From: Prorocentrum cordatum
Taxonomy: Eukaryota > Sar > Dinophyceae > Prorocentrales > Prorocentraceae
Length of the DNA: 64,000 nt
NCBI GenBank assembly: GCA_963575745.1
Contig: CAUYUJ010016149.1
Coordinates: forward strand, 843,604-907,603
Direction of reading: 5' to 3'
In this document: positions 10,534-55,259 of the stretch, in pieces
Layout: the number at the start of each line of letters is the position of its first letter
Position numbering within the stretch: position 1 is the first letter of the stretch
Notes under the pieces: generated by a model
Database searches by the model: none
What the model saw: the letters and a program-made list of their open reading frames with translations, nothing else
Told to the model about the DNA's origin: nothing
Made by a program: the position numbers and the translations under genes

Positions 10534-10800
10534 GCGTTTGCCGGCGGCGGCGGCGGCGGGCGGCTGCAGCGGCGCGACGGGGGGGGGTTCGAACCCCCCC
10601 CCGGGAGGCCTGGGGAGGGGAGGGGGGGTTCGAACCCCCCCCGCTTGGCGCAAGAATTTGTCGTCGTCGTTGTCGTCGTCGTCATCGGCGGCGGCGGCGG
10701 CGGCTGCGGCGAGTAGGGGGGGGGGGGGCGGGGGGGTTCGAAACCCCCCCCTGGGGAGGGGGGGGGGTCGAAACCGCCCTGGGGGGCCCCCGGGGGAGGG
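10151..10800. repeat. (CGT)n arrays and TTCGAA-palindrome modules, inverted relative to 8.7-9.1 kb
   Basis: CGT triplets fill about 10157-10380 and 10497-10535. Between and after them lie modules with GGGGTTCGAACCCC at about 10459, 10585 and 10628, and degenerate forms at 10735 and 10768. The 10378-10500 module is the reverse complement of that at about 8799-8920. Confidence 0.8.
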
Positions 10801-25958: not shown

Positions 25959-26573
25959 AGGAGTTGTCCTCGCGTTAATTTGCGGACGGGGGCGGGAGGG
26001 GGCCCGGGGCAGTGCCGCCCTCCCCCAGGCAGTTCCGCGCCGTCCTCTGGGCAGCTCGGTTCCGAGGGCTCGCCGTCGCCGCCTGGCTCCGCCGGGGTGC
26101 TTGCAACGCTGCTGCCGGCCAGCTTTGCGCAGGCGGCGGGCATTTGCAAGCCCGCGCCCCCTCCAGGAGGAGGGAGGGGTCGGGCAGGGCTTACAGGATG
26201 AGCAGAGACCCCAGTTCCGACGATTTGTTTTTTCAATCCGGGCGTGTGCCCTCGACGTCGGCCTCTGGGGTTCCCTTCACGGGGCCCCGGGCCCATCCAG
26301 GATGGAAGCTACCCCGAAGGATTTGCGAGGCCACGGATGGTAACAATCATAGTTCAGGATGTCGGGGTAAATCGCTCCACAGAGTTCCCGAGTGCTCCCA
26401 GAGAGTTCTGGAGTGGCCGCGGCGCGCGAGACATCCTCCAGACCCGCCAGCTTTCAGAGATTCCCTATGTGACCTCATCCGATGTTTTCCCCATTTTGTC
26501 TTCGTCGCAGGAAGGGGGGATGAGTGGGATGAGCAGGAAGGGGAAATTCCTGTCGGACGACATGGGGGGATTG
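25959..26573. other. No gene recognised
   Basis: GC-rich to mixed sequence. TCCAGACCCGCCAGCTTTCAGA near 26430 resembles the TCAGAGCCGCCAGATCTCAG sequence near 15160, a possible further dispersed repeat. Confidence 0.35.
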
Positions 26574-26720
26574 GCAGAGAGGAGGGTGCGACATCTGCTA
26601 TCTACAGCTGGTTTCGGCCCTGGCGCCGGGCGCTTTCCTTGTCACACGGCCGTCTCTGGCGCCGGGGAAACCAGCAAAGAGAGCTAATTCGTTTTCCCCT
26701 CGTTTGTTATCGCCCCCGTT
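26574..26720 (+). repeat. Dispersed repeat DR-2, copy 2
   Basis: GCGACATCTGCTATCTACAG, CTGGTTTCGGCCCTGGCGCC and CCGTCTCTGGCGCCGG appear in the order seen at 45585 and 55107, ending with TATCGCCCCC. Confidence 0.75.
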
Positions 26721-44945: not shown

Positions 44946-45584
44946 AGGAGGAGGAATATGGGCAAAGAAAAGCAGAAGGGGAGGAGTGAGGAGGCGGAAG
45001 GAGGAGGGAGAGGGAGGAGGGGGGCGGGAGTGAGGCGGAGCAGGCCCCTCCTCGAAGGAGTTTTGACGGAGACGGGGAGGGCGCTGCTCCCGACCCCAGG
45101 GCCGCTGGTTCGTGGGCCTGGTGACGCAGCTCAGCATGTCCCCGACGGCGCCCGGCTGCGATGCCCGCTTGCCGCTGGTTCCTCATGGCATCTTCGTCCT
45201 CATTCTCGTCGCCCTCCCGTGACGATCGATGCGATCCGAGATAGATTCTGGCTGCCTCGATCCGACTCGATCCGGCTCGATCCGATTCCATTCGAGGTGG
45301 TGCAACGGTATGGTTTTCAAAAAGGGGGTTCAATGAGGTAGCTCAAGAGGGTGGTTTTTAGAAGGTGGTTTCAGCAGGAGCAGGAGGGGAGGAGGACCGA
45401 GAAGGCGGGCGCCTTCCACGCGCCACGGCGCACCTTGCCCCACCCCCCCCCGACGGGGCCGCCCTGCGCTCGGGGACCCGCAATCCGTAACCCGCAGCTC
45501 AAGGGATCAGGTGCGGCCGGACGCCTGCAGGGCGCTGCTGCGCAGTCTGGCGCGGCCGAGCCGCTCCGGTCCCCTCGGGCCGGA

Positions 45585-45770
45585 CGAAAGGGGGGGATTG
45601 GGAAAGGGGGGGTTACGAAATCTGCTGCATGCAGCTGGTTTCGGCCTCACCGAGGGGCCCATTCCTGGATACATAGCCGCCTCTGGCGCCGGGAGGCGCC
45701 GGGAAAATCAGCTACGTGAGCTGATTCTCAAACCCCCCCTTTGCTATCCCCCCCTGTCGCCCGACCCGAC
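45585..45770 (+). repeat. Dispersed repeat DR-2, copy 3
   Basis: GGTTACGAAATCTGCTGCAT, CAGCTGGTTTCGGCCTC, GCCGCCTCTGGCGCCGGGAG and TCAGCTACGTGAGCTGATTC, in the order seen at 26574 and 55107. Confidence 0.75.
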
Positions 45771-45894
45771 TGGCGCGGCCGAGCCGGTCCGGTCCCCCTT
45801 CCGTGCCGATGCGGCCTGAGCCCACGAGCGTTTCGTTCCGGCTCGATGTTCCGGATTCGAGGTTGGCTGATCTTCAGGGGAGGACCAGGCACCG

Positions 45895-46042
45895 ATATTG
45901 CTACCCTCGCCTCGCTTTCCCCTTTTCAGGCCTCCTGGGAGGCCCTCGTCGCCACCGCTGGATTTCGAGGCGAATCCAGCGGTGGTGACGAGGTCCTCCC
46001 AGGAGGCCTGAAAAGGGGAAAGCGAGGCGAGGGTAGCAGTAT
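45895..46042. repeat. Long hairpin: 70-bp arms, 8-base loop
   Basis: The left arm 45895-45964 begins ATATTGCTACCCTCGCC and ends ACCGCTGGATT. The right arm 45973-46042 is its reverse complement with about three mismatches and ends GAGGGTAGCAGTAT(GG). Such arms would fold into a long stable hairpin as RNA or a cruciform as DNA. No coding content. Confidence 0.9.
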
Positions 46043-46384
46043 GGGTGCCTGTTGGTTTCCTCAGAGCCTGCACACGGGGCTCCAGTCGCAGGGTATCGTG
46101 TTTATATTGGATGGTTTTCCATGGGACGGCGTGCCCTGGAGGGCTGGCCAGGGCCCGCGCCTTCCTGAAAGGGATCGTGCAGATCACCGACAGGTGCATG
46201 TCTGGAGTTGTTGGCGGGCCCCTCCTCGGCGACGCGAGGTTTGTTTCACGTCGAGGCTGTCGCGAAGAGAGATCCCTCGACATTTATCTCGTCTTGCCCT
46301 CCTCCATCCTCATGATGAATGGCAAGCTCGTCCTCACCGCACCACCAGATGTGTTGGTAGGGCGGGCTGGGCGTTTCGCCTGAC

Positions 46385-46452
46385 GCCGTCACCGCTCGTG
46401 ACTCCGAAGCTGGATATTTGTTCCACCGTTTCACGGAAGGACGGCGGGTTGT
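46385..46452 (-). repeat. TR-85 unit, left half, interrupted by the retroelement
   Basis: Ends TTTCACGGAAGGACGGCGGG then TTGT. It continues directly in 54296-54490 (TTCAAGATTTGGTTTTCG...), matching the TR-85 consensus GGCGGGCCGTTTTCAAAACG. Confidence 0.75.
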
Positions 46453-46453
46453 T

Positions 46454-46792
46454 GGCGAGAACACAACGCAGTTTTGTTCGTTGTCACAAAAACGCGGACC
46501 TGGGAACCTTCTACCCCTGCCGCCCCGCCGCTGGCGCCGCGGTTCGCCGCGGTGCCTGTGGTGGGGCGGGTTGGGTCGGTTGGGGGGTGCGTTTGGGGTG
46601 GCTCGCCTCAGGTCTTCTTGGACTTCGTGTTCCTCGTCTTGTTCGTGTTCTTTGTCCACGTCTCCCTGCGGTGGGGGGAGGGTAAATATACCCCCGCGTC
46701 GCGCGCGCTGCCCCGAGGGCGCTTGTCGGCCGAACGCGAGGCTGGCGCCCTCGGTGCGCGCGTCGCGGGCCGCCGTGGCGGCTTTTGTTTCC
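46454..46792 (+). repeat. Terminal split direct repeat A1
   Basis: Begins GGCGAGAACACAACGCAG and ends GGCGGCTTTTGTTTCC. Aligns with A2 over its full length with one indel (GGGTTGGG against GGGTGGG) and one substitution (CGGTGCG against CGGCGCG). Confidence 0.9.
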
Positions 46793-46795
46793 GTA

Positions 46796-47480
46796 TGACC
46801 GTGTCAGTATGACCGTGTCAATGAGGCCGTGTCAATGCGACCGTGCCTGGGCCGTGTCAATGCGACCGTGCCAATACGACCGTGTCAGTGCGACCGTGTC
46901 GATAAAGCCGTGTCAATGCGACCGTGCTATGGCCGTGTCAATGCGACCGTGCCAGTATGACCGTGTCAGTGAGACCGGGTCAATAAGGCCGTGTCAATGT
47001 GACCGTGCCTGGGCCGTGTCAATGCGACCGTGCCAATACGACCGTGTCAGTGCGACCGTGTCGATAAAGCCGTGTCAATGCGACCGTGCTATGGCCGTGT
47101 CAATGCGACCGTGCCAGTATGACCGCGTCAATGTGTCCGTGTTGATGCGGCCGTGTCAATGCGACCGTGCCTGGGCCGTGTCGACGCGACCGCGCCAGTA
47201 AGATCGCGTCAATGCGACCGCGTCTGTAAGGCCGTGTCAATGCGACCGCGCCTTTTCGATTGCGTCAACGCAACGCGTCAATTACGCCGTGTCGTTGCGA
47301 CCGTGCCAATTTCTCCGCGTCACTGCGTCCGTGTCTTGTGGGGCGTGCCAAGGGGACCGTGCCGTTGCGACCATGTCAACGCGTCCGTCTCGCCGCGACC
47401 GTATCAATGCGAATGTGTAAAAGCGAATGCGTCATTGCGACCGTGTCAGCGCGACCGTGTCAGTGCGACCACGCCAATAT
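46796..47480 (+). repeat. 15-bp CGTGTCAATGCGACC leader array with 162-bp higher-order period
   Basis: Units such as CGTGTCAATGCGACC and CGTGCCAATACGACC fill the start of the internal region. The landmark GCCTGGGCCGTG recurs at 46845 and 47007 (162 bases), showing a higher-order unit. It decays toward 47480. The frames with MRPCQ/YDRVS repeats are probably not protein. Confidence 0.85.
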
Positions 47481-47662
47481 TACCGCGTCAATGCGACCGG
47501 TTTCCGCCGCCCAGCGTGTTGACATTCGTCAGGAGACGCGCGCAATGATCGTTGTTACGCGACGGAGCCAGCAGTGCGCGCAGGCAGAAGACGCGAGCCG
47601 CATACGCCGTTGGGCGCGCCGCGGCCACACCAGCGATGTGCGCTGCAACGCCCGCGCTGTCC

Positions 47663-48893
47663 ATGAGCCTGGCTGATTTTCTTGCGGCCCATGATGATGC
47701 AAGCCGCGGCGCCGAGTGGCTTCGGCAGTGCGCAGCCCTATGCCAGGCGCCGCGAGCGGCTGCGAATGCCGCCACGACGCGCCAGTGCCTCGCGCGCAGG
47801 ACAATGAGTTGGAGTCAGTGCGTGATCTTTCGTTTGCAGATCCCGGCGCACTGCAGGGCAACCCGTCCGCGGGTAAGCGCTTCTTCTTAGCCAGAGTGAT
47901 GGCTGCCGCGAAGTCTCTGACAGCGGAGGAACAGCGCGCGGCTGATCCGGCCAGCGCAGGCAGCGCGGCCGGGAGCGGGTCAGCACCTGAGCCGACGTGC
48001 CACGTGGACATTCAGGCGAAGTTGCAAGGAGGCGCTCTGAAGGATGTGGGCCAGGCGTTTTGGCCGCGGTCCGCGGCGGTCGACGCCCTCGAGACGGACG
48101 AGAGGCGGCTGCAGCGTCGCGGCATCAAGCGGCCATTTGTGTTCGCTGACCTGAAGAAGTTCTTGCCGTCCTGGGCAGAATCGAAGAGCGCGAAAGAGGA
48201 GGCTGATGAGGGCCCGCCCATGTCTCGGGATCTTCGCGACCTTTCGCGCGCGCTCGGCGTATCGAACCCAGTCAAAGCGAAGTCGCTCACTTTCACGCAA
48301 TGGCATGCCGCCTTCGACAGGTGCACGCGTCTGCGCGCGGGGCGCGCACCCAAGAGCAACGGCGTCGTCCGAGCGCGTAGGTACGCCATCGCTTGCGTCT
48401 GCACGGAGCAGATGACGCTGGCTGCGACGTTTCGCCACCGCCAGAACGTCATGAAGGCCCGCCTATCGCCGTTGCTCTGCGGATCCAGCGGCGCGAGTGC
48501 GATGCGCGCGCGGCGCGGCAGGTGGCCGCGCAGGCGCCCAATGCTAATCGGAGTGGCGCGCTGGGGCTCGTATACGATGAGATTTGCCGGCGCACTTTGG
48601 CAGAGAGGTCTCGCGCCGGTGATGATTCCCTCGACATCGAAACTGTCGTGGCAACGATCGATGTGACTCTCTTGGGCGAGGCAGAGGCCGCGTACGCTCG
48701 CGAAAGTCAGGAGCGCTCAGCCCCCCGCGGGGGCAAGGGTGCCAAGGGCGGCGGAAAACCCGGCAAGGGCGGCGGCAAGGGCGCCAAGGGCGGCGGCAAG
48801 GGCAAGTTCCCGCCTGCGCCCCCGGCGGCGCCGAACGACCGCGGCGAGTACGGGGAGCCGCGGGCCAAGAGAGCCAGGCATCACGAGCGCTGA
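47663..48893 (+). pseudogene. Gag-like region of the Ngaro-type element, frameshifted
   Basis: From MSLADFLAAHDD at 47663 the reading needs two frame changes. Near 47785 it moves to the frame carrying DNELESVRDLSFADPGALQG. Near 48455 it moves to the frame carrying IAVALRIQRRE and SLDIETVVATIDV, ending at the TGA before 48894. The C-terminal tail is a Gly-Lys repeat (GGKGAKGGGK) followed by a basic RAKRARHHER, likely nucleic-acid-binding. No zinc knuckle is seen. Position ahead of the RT and composition fit a Gag-like structural protein, but there is no diagnostic motif. Programmed frameshifting cannot be excluded. Confidence 0.55.
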
Positions 48894-48999
48894 TCTACGT
48901 TCCTGCGCCGCGCAGGCGCGGGTCGGTGCGCGCGCGCGCGACGGCGGTAGCCGGACGGCGCGCAGGCGCAGCTGAGAGTCCAGCGGTGACATGTGAAGC

Positions 49000-51792
49000 A
49001 TGCCGCGGACAGGAGGCTGGAAGCGCGGCGAACCTACATGTATGTCGCGCGCGGTGGCGTCGCGCTTGCGCAGGCTACCAATTCGGTGTGGACGCGCGGG
49101 GCGCAGCCTACACCGGTTGTTTCACTGGAAGAAGTTGCCGGCGCGGGCGCTCCCGCGGTGGGCGGTGTGCAAGCCCATTTGTCGAAAGGCCCCATCGCGT
49201 ATCCGTCTTTGCTCCCGCGCGCGCGCGTTAAAAATCTGTCGCGTTGTAGGAGAGCTTGACGCTGGCGACGTGCAGAAGATAGAATTTATCAACTGTGCAA
49301 TGAAGGACGGATTTCACATCGCGCCAACGCGCGGGATTGAGGAAGACGTTCGCTGCGCCATAGAGTGGGAAGCGTCCAGAGACAGCGTAGAGGTTATGCG
49401 TCTGCGCGACAATATGCTATCACGCCTGGAAGCGTGGGGACAAGCGTTATGACGTGACGGGGCCGTCGAGCAATGGTTCGCCGGCGCTGACGACGCGACG
49501 CGCGCCGTGTCCGCCGACGTGAATGGGCCGCTTTTAGCTGCTCTGCTCGACATGACGAGCTACGATGACACGGCCGCGGCTGATCGGTTCCGCTACGGCG
49601 CGCCTTTGCTCGGAAAGCTGCCCCATGCGGGCAGAGGGCCCGCAAAGAAATTCCCGGAGCCCACGTCGTCCGAGGAGTTGCTGACCTCCTCCCCCGTGCA
49701 CAAGAGAGCCATTTTGTCTTCCTTGCGAGAGGACGTGAACTCGTCTGCGATCCACGAGGGCGCGCTCGCCGATGCGTCTCTGTCGCGGATGACCGCTCCG
49801 GTTGTGCTGGCCAAGGCGGACTTGGGCAGGGTGCGTCTGTCCCCGCGTTTCTCCAGTGTGCAGGGCGTCAAGCCGGATGGCGCGCCCAAGGTTCGCGTAG
49901 TAGACGATGAATCGAGAGGGGGCATCAACTCGGCGTGCCAGCCCGCCGAGAGGTTGTTGCTGGACGGGGCTGACGTTTTGGTGGACGCCCTGCGCTGATA
50001 TCACGGTCTGCGCGGGCACGCACCGGCACTGTTTAAGGCTGACATCGACTCCGCTTACCGGCGTGTGCCTATCGCTCCTGAACACAGGCTCGGGATTTCC
50101 GGGTGCCCCCCCCCGTTAAAAGCATCGACCGGGGGGCTCGTGTCGGGGTTCCAGAGGAACCCGGCGTTTGCGGTGTCGATGTCGGCCTTGCCACAGGTGG
50201 GCAGCTTACAGCACGTATTTGCACGACGGAGACATTAGGGTCACTGGTCACCTGGCGTTGATGTTCGGCGCCCTGGCTGCCGTCTTTGGGTGGGACCGAG
50301 TCGGAGCTGCCTTGGCGCACCTCGCCCGCAAGCTCTTAAAGATTCCACCCTCCGATACGTGGACGATTTCTTTGGGCCGTGCGCACCCGCAACTAAAGAG
50401 CATACCATGGCATCGCTGGCCAGACTAGTGCGCCTGCTCCTAGGTCCAGGAGCGGTTTCCGATAAGAAGCTGGAATGTGGCGACGAGCTGGAGATTTTGG
50501 GCCTGCATGTGTCCTTTTCTCTCAGCGGGATCAACTTGTTTCCCGCGCCCAAGAAGGTGCGCAAGTGGCTTTTCTTGATCAAGCAAGCGCTCGACTGCGT
50601 GACACTATGTGCCGGCCAAGCCAGCAAGCTGGCCGGCGCTCTCAGCTGGGCAGGTCAACATTGCTTCGAGCGGCTAGGGCGTGCGATGTTGCAGCCCCTG
50701 TTCGCGCAGCAGAATGCGCGATGGGGTGTCGTTCGCGCCCCGCTCAACTTGGCGCTTTTTTTTTTGTTTGTGTCCTTTTTTCCTTTTCCCTTGTTTTTTT
50801 TTTTTTTTGTACCTTTTTTTTTCTTTTTTTGTTTTGTTTCTTTTGTTGTTTTTTTTTTTTTTTTTTTTTTTGTGTTTGTTGTTCTTTTCATTTTTTTTGT
50901 TTGTGTCTTTGTTTCTTTTGCTTTGTCTTTTTTTTTTTGTCATGGTGGGGCGGCGGAGGTGCTGGCCCTCGGCATCCATCAGTCCAAGCCGTGGGCGCAG
51001 CTGGAACGGCAAGAAGTGCACTTGTTCGCTGACGCAAGGGGCGTGTCCGATCCACGGCTCGCCGCCGTGCTGTTCGTCGATGGTCGCGCCTTCTGGTCCG
51101 ACGCCACTCCAGACCAGGAGCTGCTGGAGGACTTGGCGCCGCGCCGGGACTCTCAGATTATGGCGTTAGAACTGCTCGCTATAGCGCTGGGATTAGCTAC
51201 CTTTAGTGAACTGCTGGCGGACCGCCGAGTGGTGATTTGGTCCGACAATGCGGGCGCAGAAGGGGCAGTGCGGAGCGGTCGCGCTTCCGCTTGGGACCAC
51301 TCCCGCATCATTCACGCCATGTGGTTCCTCATCGCACGCACCCGGTGTTCGCCGAGGTTTGCGCGGGTCCCATCAGCAGAGAACATCGCCGACCTTCCGT
51401 CGCGGGAGGAGTACGAGTTGCTACGTGTTCTTGGGGCGAACTTCGTGACGCCGCGCTTACGCGCGGCTGAGTTCTTCGCACCGGAGACGTTTCTGGCCCT
51501 CGCTCTGCCGGCGGGAGCGCGCCGTCGCGCGTCGTCGCGCCCCGCGAGCGCCGTTGCGCATCGAAGGCGGCACGAAGCAACGAAGGCGAGTGAGCCGCTG
51601 TCCCGCGTCGAGCCCGTTGCGAGCCATGCCTCGCGCGTGCCTTGCGAGGGCGGCCCGCGCGAGTTGATGCCAAAAGCCGACAGTGGAAGCTGCGTCGTTA
51701 ACCGGCCCCATCGATGGGCCCCTGGTCGGTTGTCCTATGCGTCAGCGCGCGGTCCCAGCACAGCCAGCGACGGGCGCTCAGTCGAGCGATAA
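49000..51792 (+). pseudogene. Reverse transcriptase and RNase H of the Ngaro-type element, interrupted
   Basis: The upstream part (DAGDVQKIEFINCAMKDGFH) leads to the RT. Motif A is FKADIDSAYRRVPI at about 50031-50070 and the catalytic YVDDFF is at 50356. RNase H follows, with FADARG, MALELLAIALGL, IWSDNAGAEGAV and SAENIADLPSR giving the Asp, Glu, Asp, Asp set. The frame is broken by TGA at 49450-49452 and 49996-49998 and by at least two frameshifts between about 50200 and 50345: HLALMFGALAAVFGWDRVGA lies in another frame from YVDDFF. From 50290 to 51792 it is open. A T-rich insert at 50752-50940 separates RT from RNase H without closing the frame. The enzyme would copy element RNA and remove the RNA strand; this copy is probably inactive. 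Confidence 0.8.
50752..50940. repeat. T-rich low-complexity insert between RT and RNase H
   Basis: About 190 bases, mostly T with scattered G and C (TTTTTTTGTTTG-like). It encodes a Phe/Val/Leu-rich stretch in the RT-RNase H frame but has no counterpart expected in the enzyme. Confidence 0.9.
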
Positions 51793-51837
51793 GCCATGAC
51801 GTTGTTTCATGAGGTCCGCGGCGTCCTGCCAGAGCTC

Positions 51838-52154
<317 letters not shown>

Positions 52155-52159
52155 CACCC

Positions 52160-53542
52160 ATGGTTACCTTTGCGTTGATCGAGGTGCTGCGGCGCCAGGA
52201 CATAACGCATCTCAGAGATCTGCAGCTAGCGCGCGTCGATTGGTTCGAACCGGTGTCTGCCGCAGAAGGGGAACGAGGCGTCAGCCCTGACGCCCTGCGC
52301 GTAGCGCTGTCAGAGTTAATTAACGAAGCGAAGAAGCCATCTGCCGTCGTGCGCGGCGCAAAGGACGAACCTTCGCCTGCACCCGACGTGCATCAGCGCG
52401 AGTGCCGCAGCCGCAGTCGCCCTGCCAGGCGGCGAGCTGCCAAGTGCGATGAGCTTTCGGCGGCTTGCGGTGCTGTGCGGGACCTTGAGCTGGCCGTCAG
52501 CATAGCGCGCCAGTGCACCATCGAGCCGCGCGCGGGCCCCCGCCGTGAAGTCGAGGCCCTGCGGCAGGGCCTCGCCCAGCGAAGCTTCAGCAAATGGTCG
52601 AATTCGGCTCGGGTCGCCGCGATTCTGGGCAGCTGCCCGAAAACGTGGCCCAGCGTAGTCAGCGCCTTCCGCTGCTGGGCGACTTTCGCCATGACCGTGC
52701 TCGGCTGCGACGCGGGGGAAGTGATTCCGCCGTCGCCCGAGGGCCTTGCATTGTGGAGCACATGCTTCCGTTGTAAAGGAACATTCGACAACTATATTTC
52801 GCACGTCAGATTAGTCTGCATCCTGTTGCGCGCCCCGCTGGACGCGCTGAGCGACCCGGCAGTCGAGCGCGCGGCTCGCGCGGTGCAAGCGCGAAACACT
52901 TGGCAGGCCAGGCCCAAGATGTTTATTCGGGAGGCGCTCCTCACCAGATTACTGAAGCATCTCGAACGCCACCAATCGGGGCGCGAGCTGCAGATGCTTT
53001 TCTTGACGGCGTACATATTCCTGTTGCGATTGCCGTCGGAAGCACTGCCGATGCACGTCGCTCGGGACGGCGATCCGCCGCGGGCGGTCGAGCCGAAGAG
53101 CTGCCTACGCCTGCATGACGGCTCGATCTCGCTGACGTTGCTTTGGCGCAAGAATCGCGCCACGCCGCTCACGATGACGCGCACGTGCTGGTGCGCGCGC
53201 TGTCCATCAACGTGCCCCGTGCACGCGCTGGGGAAATTCTGCGCCGACAGCGCGGCCCAGCAGCCTTTTGCGGGTTTCCGCCCGGACGCTGTCCTATCGG
53301 CGTTGAGAGCGGCCCTGCAAGAGCTCGGGGTGCCGCGGCACGATGCCTATCGCACCCACGATTTTCGTCGGGGCCACGCCCAAGACATGGCGGTGCGTGG
53401 CTCGCGGCTGGCCGACATCCTTCGCGCCGGAGATTGGCGGTCCGCCGCCTTCCTGTCATATTTAGACAGGGACGCGCTTGAGGACAGCGCCGTCAGGGAA
53501 GCGCACGGCGGCGCTTCGTCCAGCGACGAAGACAAGGACTGA
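52160..53542 (+). CDS. Tyrosine recombinase of the Ngaro-type element
   Basis: Intact 460-residue frame starting at the ATG just after the poly(T) tract (MVTFALIEVLRRQD); the true start could lie upstream of the T tract. The SAM-like N-terminal core region is around SFSKWSNSARVAAILG. The catalytic domain shows LLRLPSEAL (first Arg, about residue 293), THDFRRGH (His400, Arg403), GDWRSAAF (Trp426) and SYLD (Tyr434, the nucleophile). RKNRATPL may supply the catalytic Lys strand. This is the R-K-H-R-W-Y set of tyrosine recombinases. A short acidic tail (SSSDEDKD) ends at TGA. It would insert the circular double-stranded DNA copy by strand exchange at a short core. It is the only uninterrupted enzyme in the element. 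Confidence 0.85.
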   Translation: MVTFALIEVLRRQDITHLRDLQLARVDWFEPVSAAEGERGVSPDALRVALSELINEAKKPSAVVRGAKDEPSPAPDVHQRECRSRSRPARRRAAKCDELSAACGAVRDLELAVSIARQCTIEPRAGPRREVEALRQGLAQRSFSKWSNSARVAAILGSCPKTWPSVVSAFRCWATFAMTVLGCDAGEVIPPSPEGLALWSTCFRCKGTFDNYISHVRLVCILLRAPLDALSDPAVERAARAVQARNTWQARPKMFIREALLTRLLKHLERHQSGRELQMLFLTAYIFLLRLPSEALPMHVARDGDPPRAVEPKSCLRLHDGSISLTLLWRKNRATPLTMTRTCWCARCPSTCPVHALGKFCADSAAQQPFAGFRPDAVLSALRAALQELGVPRHDAYRTHDFRRGHAQDMAVRGSRLADILRAGDWRSAAFLSYLDRDALEDSAVREAHGGASSSDEDKD

Positions 53543-53620
53543 GGTGGCTGTGAGCCTATAGAACACCTTCGGCGAGAACAGCGTTGGGTTTTCCTCGCGC
53601 GCAGGTGCAGCAAGGGCCTT

Positions 53621-53769
53621 GGGTGTCGCTGCACCCGCGCGCTCCCGCGGGGAGCGGCGAGCGACGAGTGCGCCGCTCGCCCCCCCCCGCGGGCGCGTGC
53701 CTACCCAACGCGCAGCGCTCCCCGCGCTCTCCCCCAACCCTCGGGTTTTCCAGGGTAGCGTCTTTTGTG
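53621..53769 (+). repeat. Split direct repeat B1
   Basis: Begins GGGTGTCGCTGCACCCG and ends GTAGCGTCTTTTGTG, immediately followed by A2. 149 bases, apparently identical to B2. Confidence 0.9.
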
Positions 53770-54107
53770 GGCGAGAACACAACGCAGTTTTGTTCGTTGT
53801 CACAAAAACGCGGACCTGGGAACCTTCTACCCCTGCCGCCCCGCCGCTGGCGCCGCGGTTCGCCGCGGTGCCTGTGGTGGGGCGGGTGGGTCGGTTGGGG
53901 GGTGCGTTTGGGGTGGCTCGCCTCAGGTCTTCTTGGACTTCGTGTTCCTCGTCTTGTTCGTGTTCTTTGTCCACGTCTCCCTGCGGTGGGGGGAGGGTAA
54001 ATATACCCCCGCGTCGCGCGCGCTGCCCCGAGGGCGCTTGTCGGCCGAACGCGAGGCTGGCGCCCTCGGCGCGCGCGTCGCGGGCCGCCGTGGCGGCTTT
54101 TGTTTCC
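53770..54107 (+). repeat. Split direct repeat A2
   Basis: Second copy of A1, beginning GGCGAGAACACAACGCAG and ending CTTTTGTTTCC. Confidence 0.9.
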
Positions 54108-54146
54108 CCTCACCCTTCGCCGCTCCTTTGGTTGGGGTGGGGCGCG

Positions 54147-54295
54147 GGGTGTCGCTGCACCCGCGCGCTCCCGCGGGGAGCGGCGAGCGACGAGTGCGCC
54201 GCTCGCCCCCCCCCGCGGGCGCGTGCCTACCCAACGCGCAGCGCTCCCCGCGCTCTCCCCCAACCCTCGGGTTTTCCAGGGTAGCGTCTTTTGTG
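54147..54295 (+). repeat. Split direct repeat B2, right end of element
   Basis: Same 149 bases as B1, ending CTTTTGTG; then host sequence TTCAAGATTTGG resumes. A 39-base spacer separates it from A2. Confidence 0.9.
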
Positions 54296-55075: not shown

Positions 55076-55106
55076 AACTATTGAGGGACACAGAGCAATA
55101 TTCGGG

Positions 55107-55255
55107 CCAGGCGAAAGAGGGGGATGGGACATGGGAGGCTACGGAATCCGCTGCGCGCAGCTGGTTTCGGCCCCGCCGCCGGGCCCCTTTTTCGATGCAC
55201 GGGCGCCTCCCGGCGCCAGGAGGCGTCAGGTAAGCCAGCCGCGCGAGCTGATTCT
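55107..55255 (+). repeat. Dispersed repeat DR-2, copy 4
   Basis: GGCTACGGAATCCGCTGCGC, GCAGCTGGTTTCGGCCC, GGCGCCTCCCGGCGCCAGGA and GCGCGAGCTGATTCTC, same order as copies 2 and 3. Confidence 0.75.
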
Positions 55256-55259
55256 CTGT

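Follow-up and report, generated by a model that had tools for sequence, protein, structure and literature searches.

Repeat layout of the element

We analysed a stretch of 64,000 nucleotides of contig CAUYUJ010016149.1, assigned to Prorocentrum cordatum and hereafter called the window, and focused on an element at positions 46,453 to 54,295. A first-pass annotation made from the letters had described it as a near-complete retroelement of the DIRS/Ngaro type, i.e., one element with split direct repeats. It starts with a repeat half, A1, and ends with the halves B1, A2 and B2; between them lie regions for a reverse transcriptase (RT), a ribonuclease H (RNase H) and a tyrosine recombinase. The repeats and the adjoining host bases are the following (window coordinates; + is the forward strand):

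46446–46453, +: host-derived T-rich crossover core GGGTTGTT adjoining A1; varies from copy to copy, with TT(T/G)T over 35 distinct flanks
46454–46792, +: A1, the half of the split direct repeat at the left end; 339 bp, with 99.4% identity to A2
53621–53769, +: B1, identical to B2 at 149/149 bases
53770–54107, +: A2, directly after B1; the B1/A2 joint is the predicted circle junction
54108–54146, +: 39-nt spacer between A2 and B2
54147–54295, +: B2, the right end, finishing in the element core TTTTGTG, as judged from the right ends of 14 other copies

The four repeats lie where they had been annotated: the 339-bp alignment of A1 with A2 contains one substitution and a single 1-nt gap, and B1 matches B2 along all 149 bp. 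Likeness of this degree at such lengths is not due to chance. B1 abuts A2 without a gap, and A2 is followed by B2 after 39 nt. The base immediately left of A1 is part of the variable host-derived core and lies outside the element. The terminal repeats are direct, and none of the five inverted pairs of at least 25 nt found between 45500 and 55500 pairs the ends in the manner of DIRS1-type inverted terminal repeats. The layout agrees with the definition of Ngaro-like repeats (A1...B1 A2 B2, with A1 equal to A2 and B1 equal to B2) given in PMC9210276.

Two other repeats lie close by. Just left of the element is an inverted repeat (45886–46051) with 79-nt arms, 95% complementary and 8 nt apart, possibly a small foldback element. 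A dispersed repeat, 76–78% identical between copies, flanks the element at 45575–45729 and 55102–55256 and recurs at 26554–26666.

Copies in the genome

We searched the host assembly (4,128,499,153 bp in 21,875 contigs) with A1. The further copies that the first-pass annotation had proposed to seek with the A repeat were found: the best 40 of 270 candidates were scored, each 100% identical after rounding. We compared 16 other copies with the window copy, a first set of eight and then eight more. The complete layout, with all four repeats, is directly visible in 14 of the 16; the exceptions are L050, which is masked (2,701 N), and L053, which leaves the element inside the RT. Every one of the 14 complete copies has a B1/A2 gap of 0 and an A2-B2 spacer of 39 nt. 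A1 and A2 are identical in seven of them and B1 and B2 in ten, a few bases at the repeat ends having been trimmed. The A and B repeats might instead belong to separate elements lying side by side. This is refuted by 14 of the 16 other copies, which lie at different sites and repeat the order, the spacing and the abutment, and we give it practically no credence. The description as a single element, with the layout A1-internal-B1A2-39 nt-B2, is upheld.

The copies are very similar. The first eight show, pairwise and gaps aside, 0–16 differences in about 4,300 bases, 0–4 in 894 and 0–3 in 2,136, and the later eight are 97.6–99.9% identical to copy L010 over long matches. Most copies are about 99–100% alike, so the family moved recently. 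The window copy differs by 47 substitutions over 7,332 bases from the base common to at least six of the first eight copies, and is therefore probably an older member of the family, with broken open reading frames (ORFs).

Crossover core and integration

Left flanks were collected from loci L009–L054. We dropped A2 starts (which have a B end before them), flanks shorter than 60 nt and unmatched A starts (e.g., L044 and L049), and 35 distinct left flanks remained, the window copy included. These flanks have a T at position -4 in 34 of 35 cases, at -5 in 31 and at -2 in 31, and position -3 carries T in 21 and G in 10; the T background further out in the same flanks is 26%. The element core at the B1/A2 joint is TTTTGTG, and the part that it has in common with the host core is TT(T/G)T. 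The window copy and 12 of 14 other copies end on the right in TTTTGTG, whereas L012 is one T short and L016 carries TTTTATT, a core of the target type, on either side. The right flanks show no richness in T.

There is no sign of target duplication. Among the 13 other copies with both junctions, the flush direct repeat measures 0 nt in 12 and 1 nt in one; by eye, it measures 2 nt in the window copy. A TT(T/G)T host core without duplication is the residue expected from a recombinase that crosses a circle with a short matching site. The core pattern and the missing duplication thus support an integration of circles driven by the recombinase. A 3-bp version of such matching-site integration is described for DIRS1 elements (PMC3266345), and a melted crossover region with AT-rich targets for Tn1549 (PMC5871717).

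Coding regions

The internal part of the element contains the following regions:

46793–47499, +: 14-bp minisatellite that belongs to the element and separates A1 from gag (Tandem Repeats Finder, TRF; aligned in 8 copies)
47698–48893, +: gag-like region in two frames (47698–48666 and 48381–48893) with a Gly/Lys-rich tail, from ORFs, position and composition
49261–50755, +: reverse transcriptase, interrupted, with YVDDFF at 50356; 66–97% identity by pieces to the database proteins P0028 and P0026
50941–51792, +: RNase H with the C-terminal stretch of the pol ORF; 279 aa aligned to P0026 at 97% identity
51797–53542, +: tyrosine recombinase ORF, split by a T-rich tract (tract 2, below); R 53027, K 53150, H 53357, R 53366, W 53435, Y 53459

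Translations of the ORFs confirm that an RT with YVDDFF, an RNase H and a recombinase with HDFRRGH and SYLD lie between the repeats, as had been annotated: YVDDFF is encoded at 50356–50373, RNase H in the ORF that follows T tract 1, and both recombinase motifs within the ORF ending at 53542. The recombinase has a Cre-like fold with the conserved residues, and its frame is open over 477 codons in 14/14 complete other copies. Pfam matched Phage_integrase in 11 of 26 members (E ≤ 0.1) and RVT_1 in 21 of 48 relatives (E ≤ 0.01). The element has the features of the order DIRS: a tyrosine recombinase rather than a DDE integrase, an RT with RNase H, and no target duplication.

The gag-like region had no Pfam match, and the label gag was given by position and composition. 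Its frame split is the same in the eight copies first compared and altered in L048, L052 and L053. In L048, at about 2359–2653 in element orientation, the Gly/Lys-rich tail is swapped for about 290 bp of other sequence that is not a simple repeat. The minisatellite has about 50 units of 14 bp, with higher-order periods of 81 and 162 bp (TRF).

Pfam found no methyltransferase in seven window pieces, though it missed the RT there too. It found no cytosine methyltransferase of the kind present in the pol of SymbioDIRS-Dnmt3 in the window pieces or in the relatives, and no hydrolase in the window pieces. Scans of viral contigs with the recombinase and with alignments A3 and A4 gave no relative. 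A sequence search of the PDB with alignment A3 returned two rows (E 0.2 and 0.92) for an unrelated hydrolase, which we rejected. At gathering scores, Rfam gave 0 window matches. The dinoflagellate spliced leader, searched as a pattern, gave one window match with 3 mismatches against 1.85 expected.

A model for the spread of the family

Very probably, the element is a split-direct-repeat retrotransposon of the tyrosine-recombinase (DIRS) order, recently amplified in a probable dinoflagellate genome and apparently integrating as a circle at T-rich sites. The element RNA would be reverse transcribed, with the internal B1/A2 joint serving as template for completing both ends and for linking B2 to A1. 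The resulting circle would have the junction B-TTTTGTG-A. The Cre-like recombinase would then cross this junction with a chromosomal site that has about four T-rich bases in common with it (TT[T/G]T). Such an exchange would leave the target core beside A1, usually the element core after B2, and no target duplication. Of these elements of the model, the repeat layout in many copies, the identity of the repeats, the recombinase fold with its conserved residues and the core pattern are observed, and the circle, the template switching and the direction of the exchange are deduced from them.

Several observations weigh against this explanation. The RT is interrupted in 17/17 copies, so that an RT made in cis is at most presumed. 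The window pieces scored below the Pfam cut-offs, with no RVT_1 match among them, and the structure predicted for the RT was poor (predicted local distance difference test, pLDDT, 52, with a 5-row alignment as input). The left cores are not uniform, since T is absent at -5 in 4/35 flanks and at -2 in 4/35. Finally, B1 and B2 differ in 4 of 14 other copies, although the core itself may account for the difference in L012 and L016.

A shared segment inside the reverse transcriptase

One of the interruptions of the RT is common to the family:

50088–50196, +: 109-bp segment inside the RT, GC...AG between CACAGG direct repeats; an intron candidate or a shared defect, in 17/17 copies

The segment measures 109 bp, or 110 bp in two of the 17 copies (window copy included), and is not in the relatives P0028 and P0029. 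A search of the assembly with P0028 gave 5,694 first-look candidates, 68 of which were scored. Among the 81 matches listed, 49 begin at residues 229–233, beside the segment, and 10 run across residues 237/238 at 69–86% identity and represent a sister group without the segment. Several copies of this sister group contain stops. P0086 (95% identity over 435 aa) is an unspliced frame that continues uninterrupted across the segment. The start of P0026, probably a TTG codon, lies immediately beyond the segment. No spliced form of the RT was among the 92 database proteins found.

We lean towards a shared defect. The family would, on balance, be non-autonomous, with gag and RT truly broken by the shared segment and by a frame change, with intact ends and recombinase, and with an RT supplied by uninterrupted relatives in the same genome. 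The presence of the segment at 109–110 bp in every copy, the 10 listed matches of the sister group that cross the site without it, and the database proteins of the family, which are unspliced frames (P0086 and P0026), all favour such a defect. Against this reading, some sister copies contain stops as well. Moreover, in most copies the frames on either side of the segment remain open over all or nearly all of their length, unlike those of a long-dead gene, but this argument is weak because the copies are so young. The segment could instead be a spliceosomal intron of the dinoflagellate GC-AG type, gained by the family, spliced out for the protein and kept in the genomic RNA, which we consider possible but doubtful. 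Its GC...AG termini, the CACAGG at both borders and its position exactly where related proteins read on are in line with an intron. Direct border repeats are also expected of introner elements, and both these elements and GC and GA donors are reported for P. cordatum (PMC10666404). The same paper used inverted end repeats to call introners, whereas here inverted repeats of 8–20 nt near the ends are absent (comparing the first 30 nt with the last 30 gives an exact inverted match of 3 nt at most). No second copy of the segment occurs outside the element in the 319,753 bases examined, and the proteins found are unspliced frames only, although their records do not state whether they derive from DNA or RNA. 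We lowered our estimate for an intron slightly because P0086 crosses the segment unspliced. A further, rather improbable extension is that the family spread with the intron in its RT, unspliced genomic RNA giving circles and spliced RNA giving RT, so that its activity would need dinoflagellate GC-AG splicing; on this reading, the split in the gag frame would represent another intron of the same sort.

Interruptions private to the window copy

Other interruptions are private to the window copy among the copies examined, including two T-rich tracts:

50756–50940, +: T-rich tract 1, absent in 15/15 other copies with the site
51838–52154, +: T-rich tract 2, also detected by TRF, after codon 14 of the recombinase ORF, absent in 14/14 other copies with the site

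The tracts interrupt the frame of RT and RNase H as well as the beginning of the recombinase ORF, and the protein P0001 reads across the site of tract 2. The window RT also has in-frame TGA codons at 49450 and 49996 and, when set against the eight compared copies, has lost 1 nt near 50345. Hence the description of the element as near-complete holds for its anatomy and fails for its coding capacity, given the RT stops, the 1-nt loss, the 109-bp segment and the tracts that break the frames.

Both tracts are on the sense strand, about 900 bp apart, and expansion, insertion or assembly are candidate causes. We rejected introns of the family, since the tracts are wholly absent in the 15 and 14 other copies. 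Slippage in an already long run of T was likewise rejected for tract 1, as the other copies show just one T at that place. The tracts might be assembly artefacts rather than mutations, an explanation that we regard as the less probable one. It would fit their absence from all other compared copies with the site, and the hybrid assembly of a repeat-rich genome (PMC10666404). On the other hand, the 47 substitutions of the window copy suggest an age that left time for such changes, and simple arrays are common across the window.

These arrays (CT, CCT, GAT, GCCTCA, GTAGTGA and others) are many across 3308–59444. A tRNA-Ser was predicted on both strands at 10557–10663, probably an artefact of an inverted repeat. 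The GC content of the window is 0.54–0.68 in 2-kb bins; the P. cordatum assembly is reported as 4.15 Gb with 59.7% GC (PMC10666404), and the genome is in line with a dinoflagellate host.

Novelty and significance

This kind of element is already known, dinoflagellates included. The suggestion of the first-pass annotation that its occurrence in such a host might be undescribed finds no support in that form, as DIRS elements with A-coding-B-A-B repeats are published for Symbiodinium (PMC5890265). As far as our searches show, the family itself and its recent burst are new, as are the crossover core documented at 35 sites and the question raised by the 109-bp segment. Among the titles listed for Ngaro, DIRS, tyrosine recombinases, dinoflagellates and P. 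cordatum, none was on the family, and in the main text of the genome paper on P. cordatum the words "DIRS" and "retrotransposon" each occur 0 times (PMC10666404).

The integration of split-repeat tyrosine-recombinase retrotransposons has so far rested mainly on models. At least 35 distinct insertion sites, together with near-identical copies, give a base-level view of the crossover core TT[T/G]T. The family also marks a recent burst in a 4-Gb genome, and the shared segment raises a testable question, namely whether an intron can persist through the replication of the retrotransposon that carries it.

Comparison with known systems

The family tree took in 50 relatives, and no protein named Ngaro, DIRS, PAT or VIPER was among the 92 distinct database proteins. 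PAT elements carry a methyltransferase, whereas Pfam found none in the window pieces. The likeness to PAT-like and VIPER-like elements lies in the split direct repeats A1...B1A2B2 and the recombinase (PMC6681497). With DIRS1-like elements the family shares the presumed circle, the lack of target duplication and a short site matching the junction, there with NTT-type trinucleotides, but the terminal repeats of DIRS1 are inverted and accompanied by internal complementary regions, and here the repeats are direct and the core has about 4–7 bases (PMC3266345). The same source lists Perkinsus marinus, under Dinoflagellata, for DIRS1-like elements. The conjugative transposons Tn916 and Tn1549 also combine a tyrosine recombinase, a circle, a short crossover region and AT-rich targets; they are bacterial DNA elements without reverse transcription, so the likeness is one of mechanism only (PMC5871717).

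Closer matches are found among Ngaro elements and in Symbiodinium. The Ngaro elements described from Cafeteria (PMC8547959) and Xenopus (PMC9210276) have the split direct repeats A1-[ORFs]-B1A2B2 and the RT/RNase H and tyrosine recombinase, and no methyltransferase was found here either. They differ in host group and in the hydrolase, which Pfam did not find in the window element; this comparison is by layout and description. SymbioDIRS, compared by description rather than sequence, may differ in its cytosine methyltransferase, which Pfam did not find in the window pieces, though DIRS elements without a DNA methyltransferase exist in Symbiodinium (PMC5890265). It shares with our family the dinoflagellate host, the A-coding-B-A-B repeats, an ORF for RT and RNase H, a separate ORF for the tyrosine recombinase, and an RT that aligns poorly with Pfam (PMC5890265).
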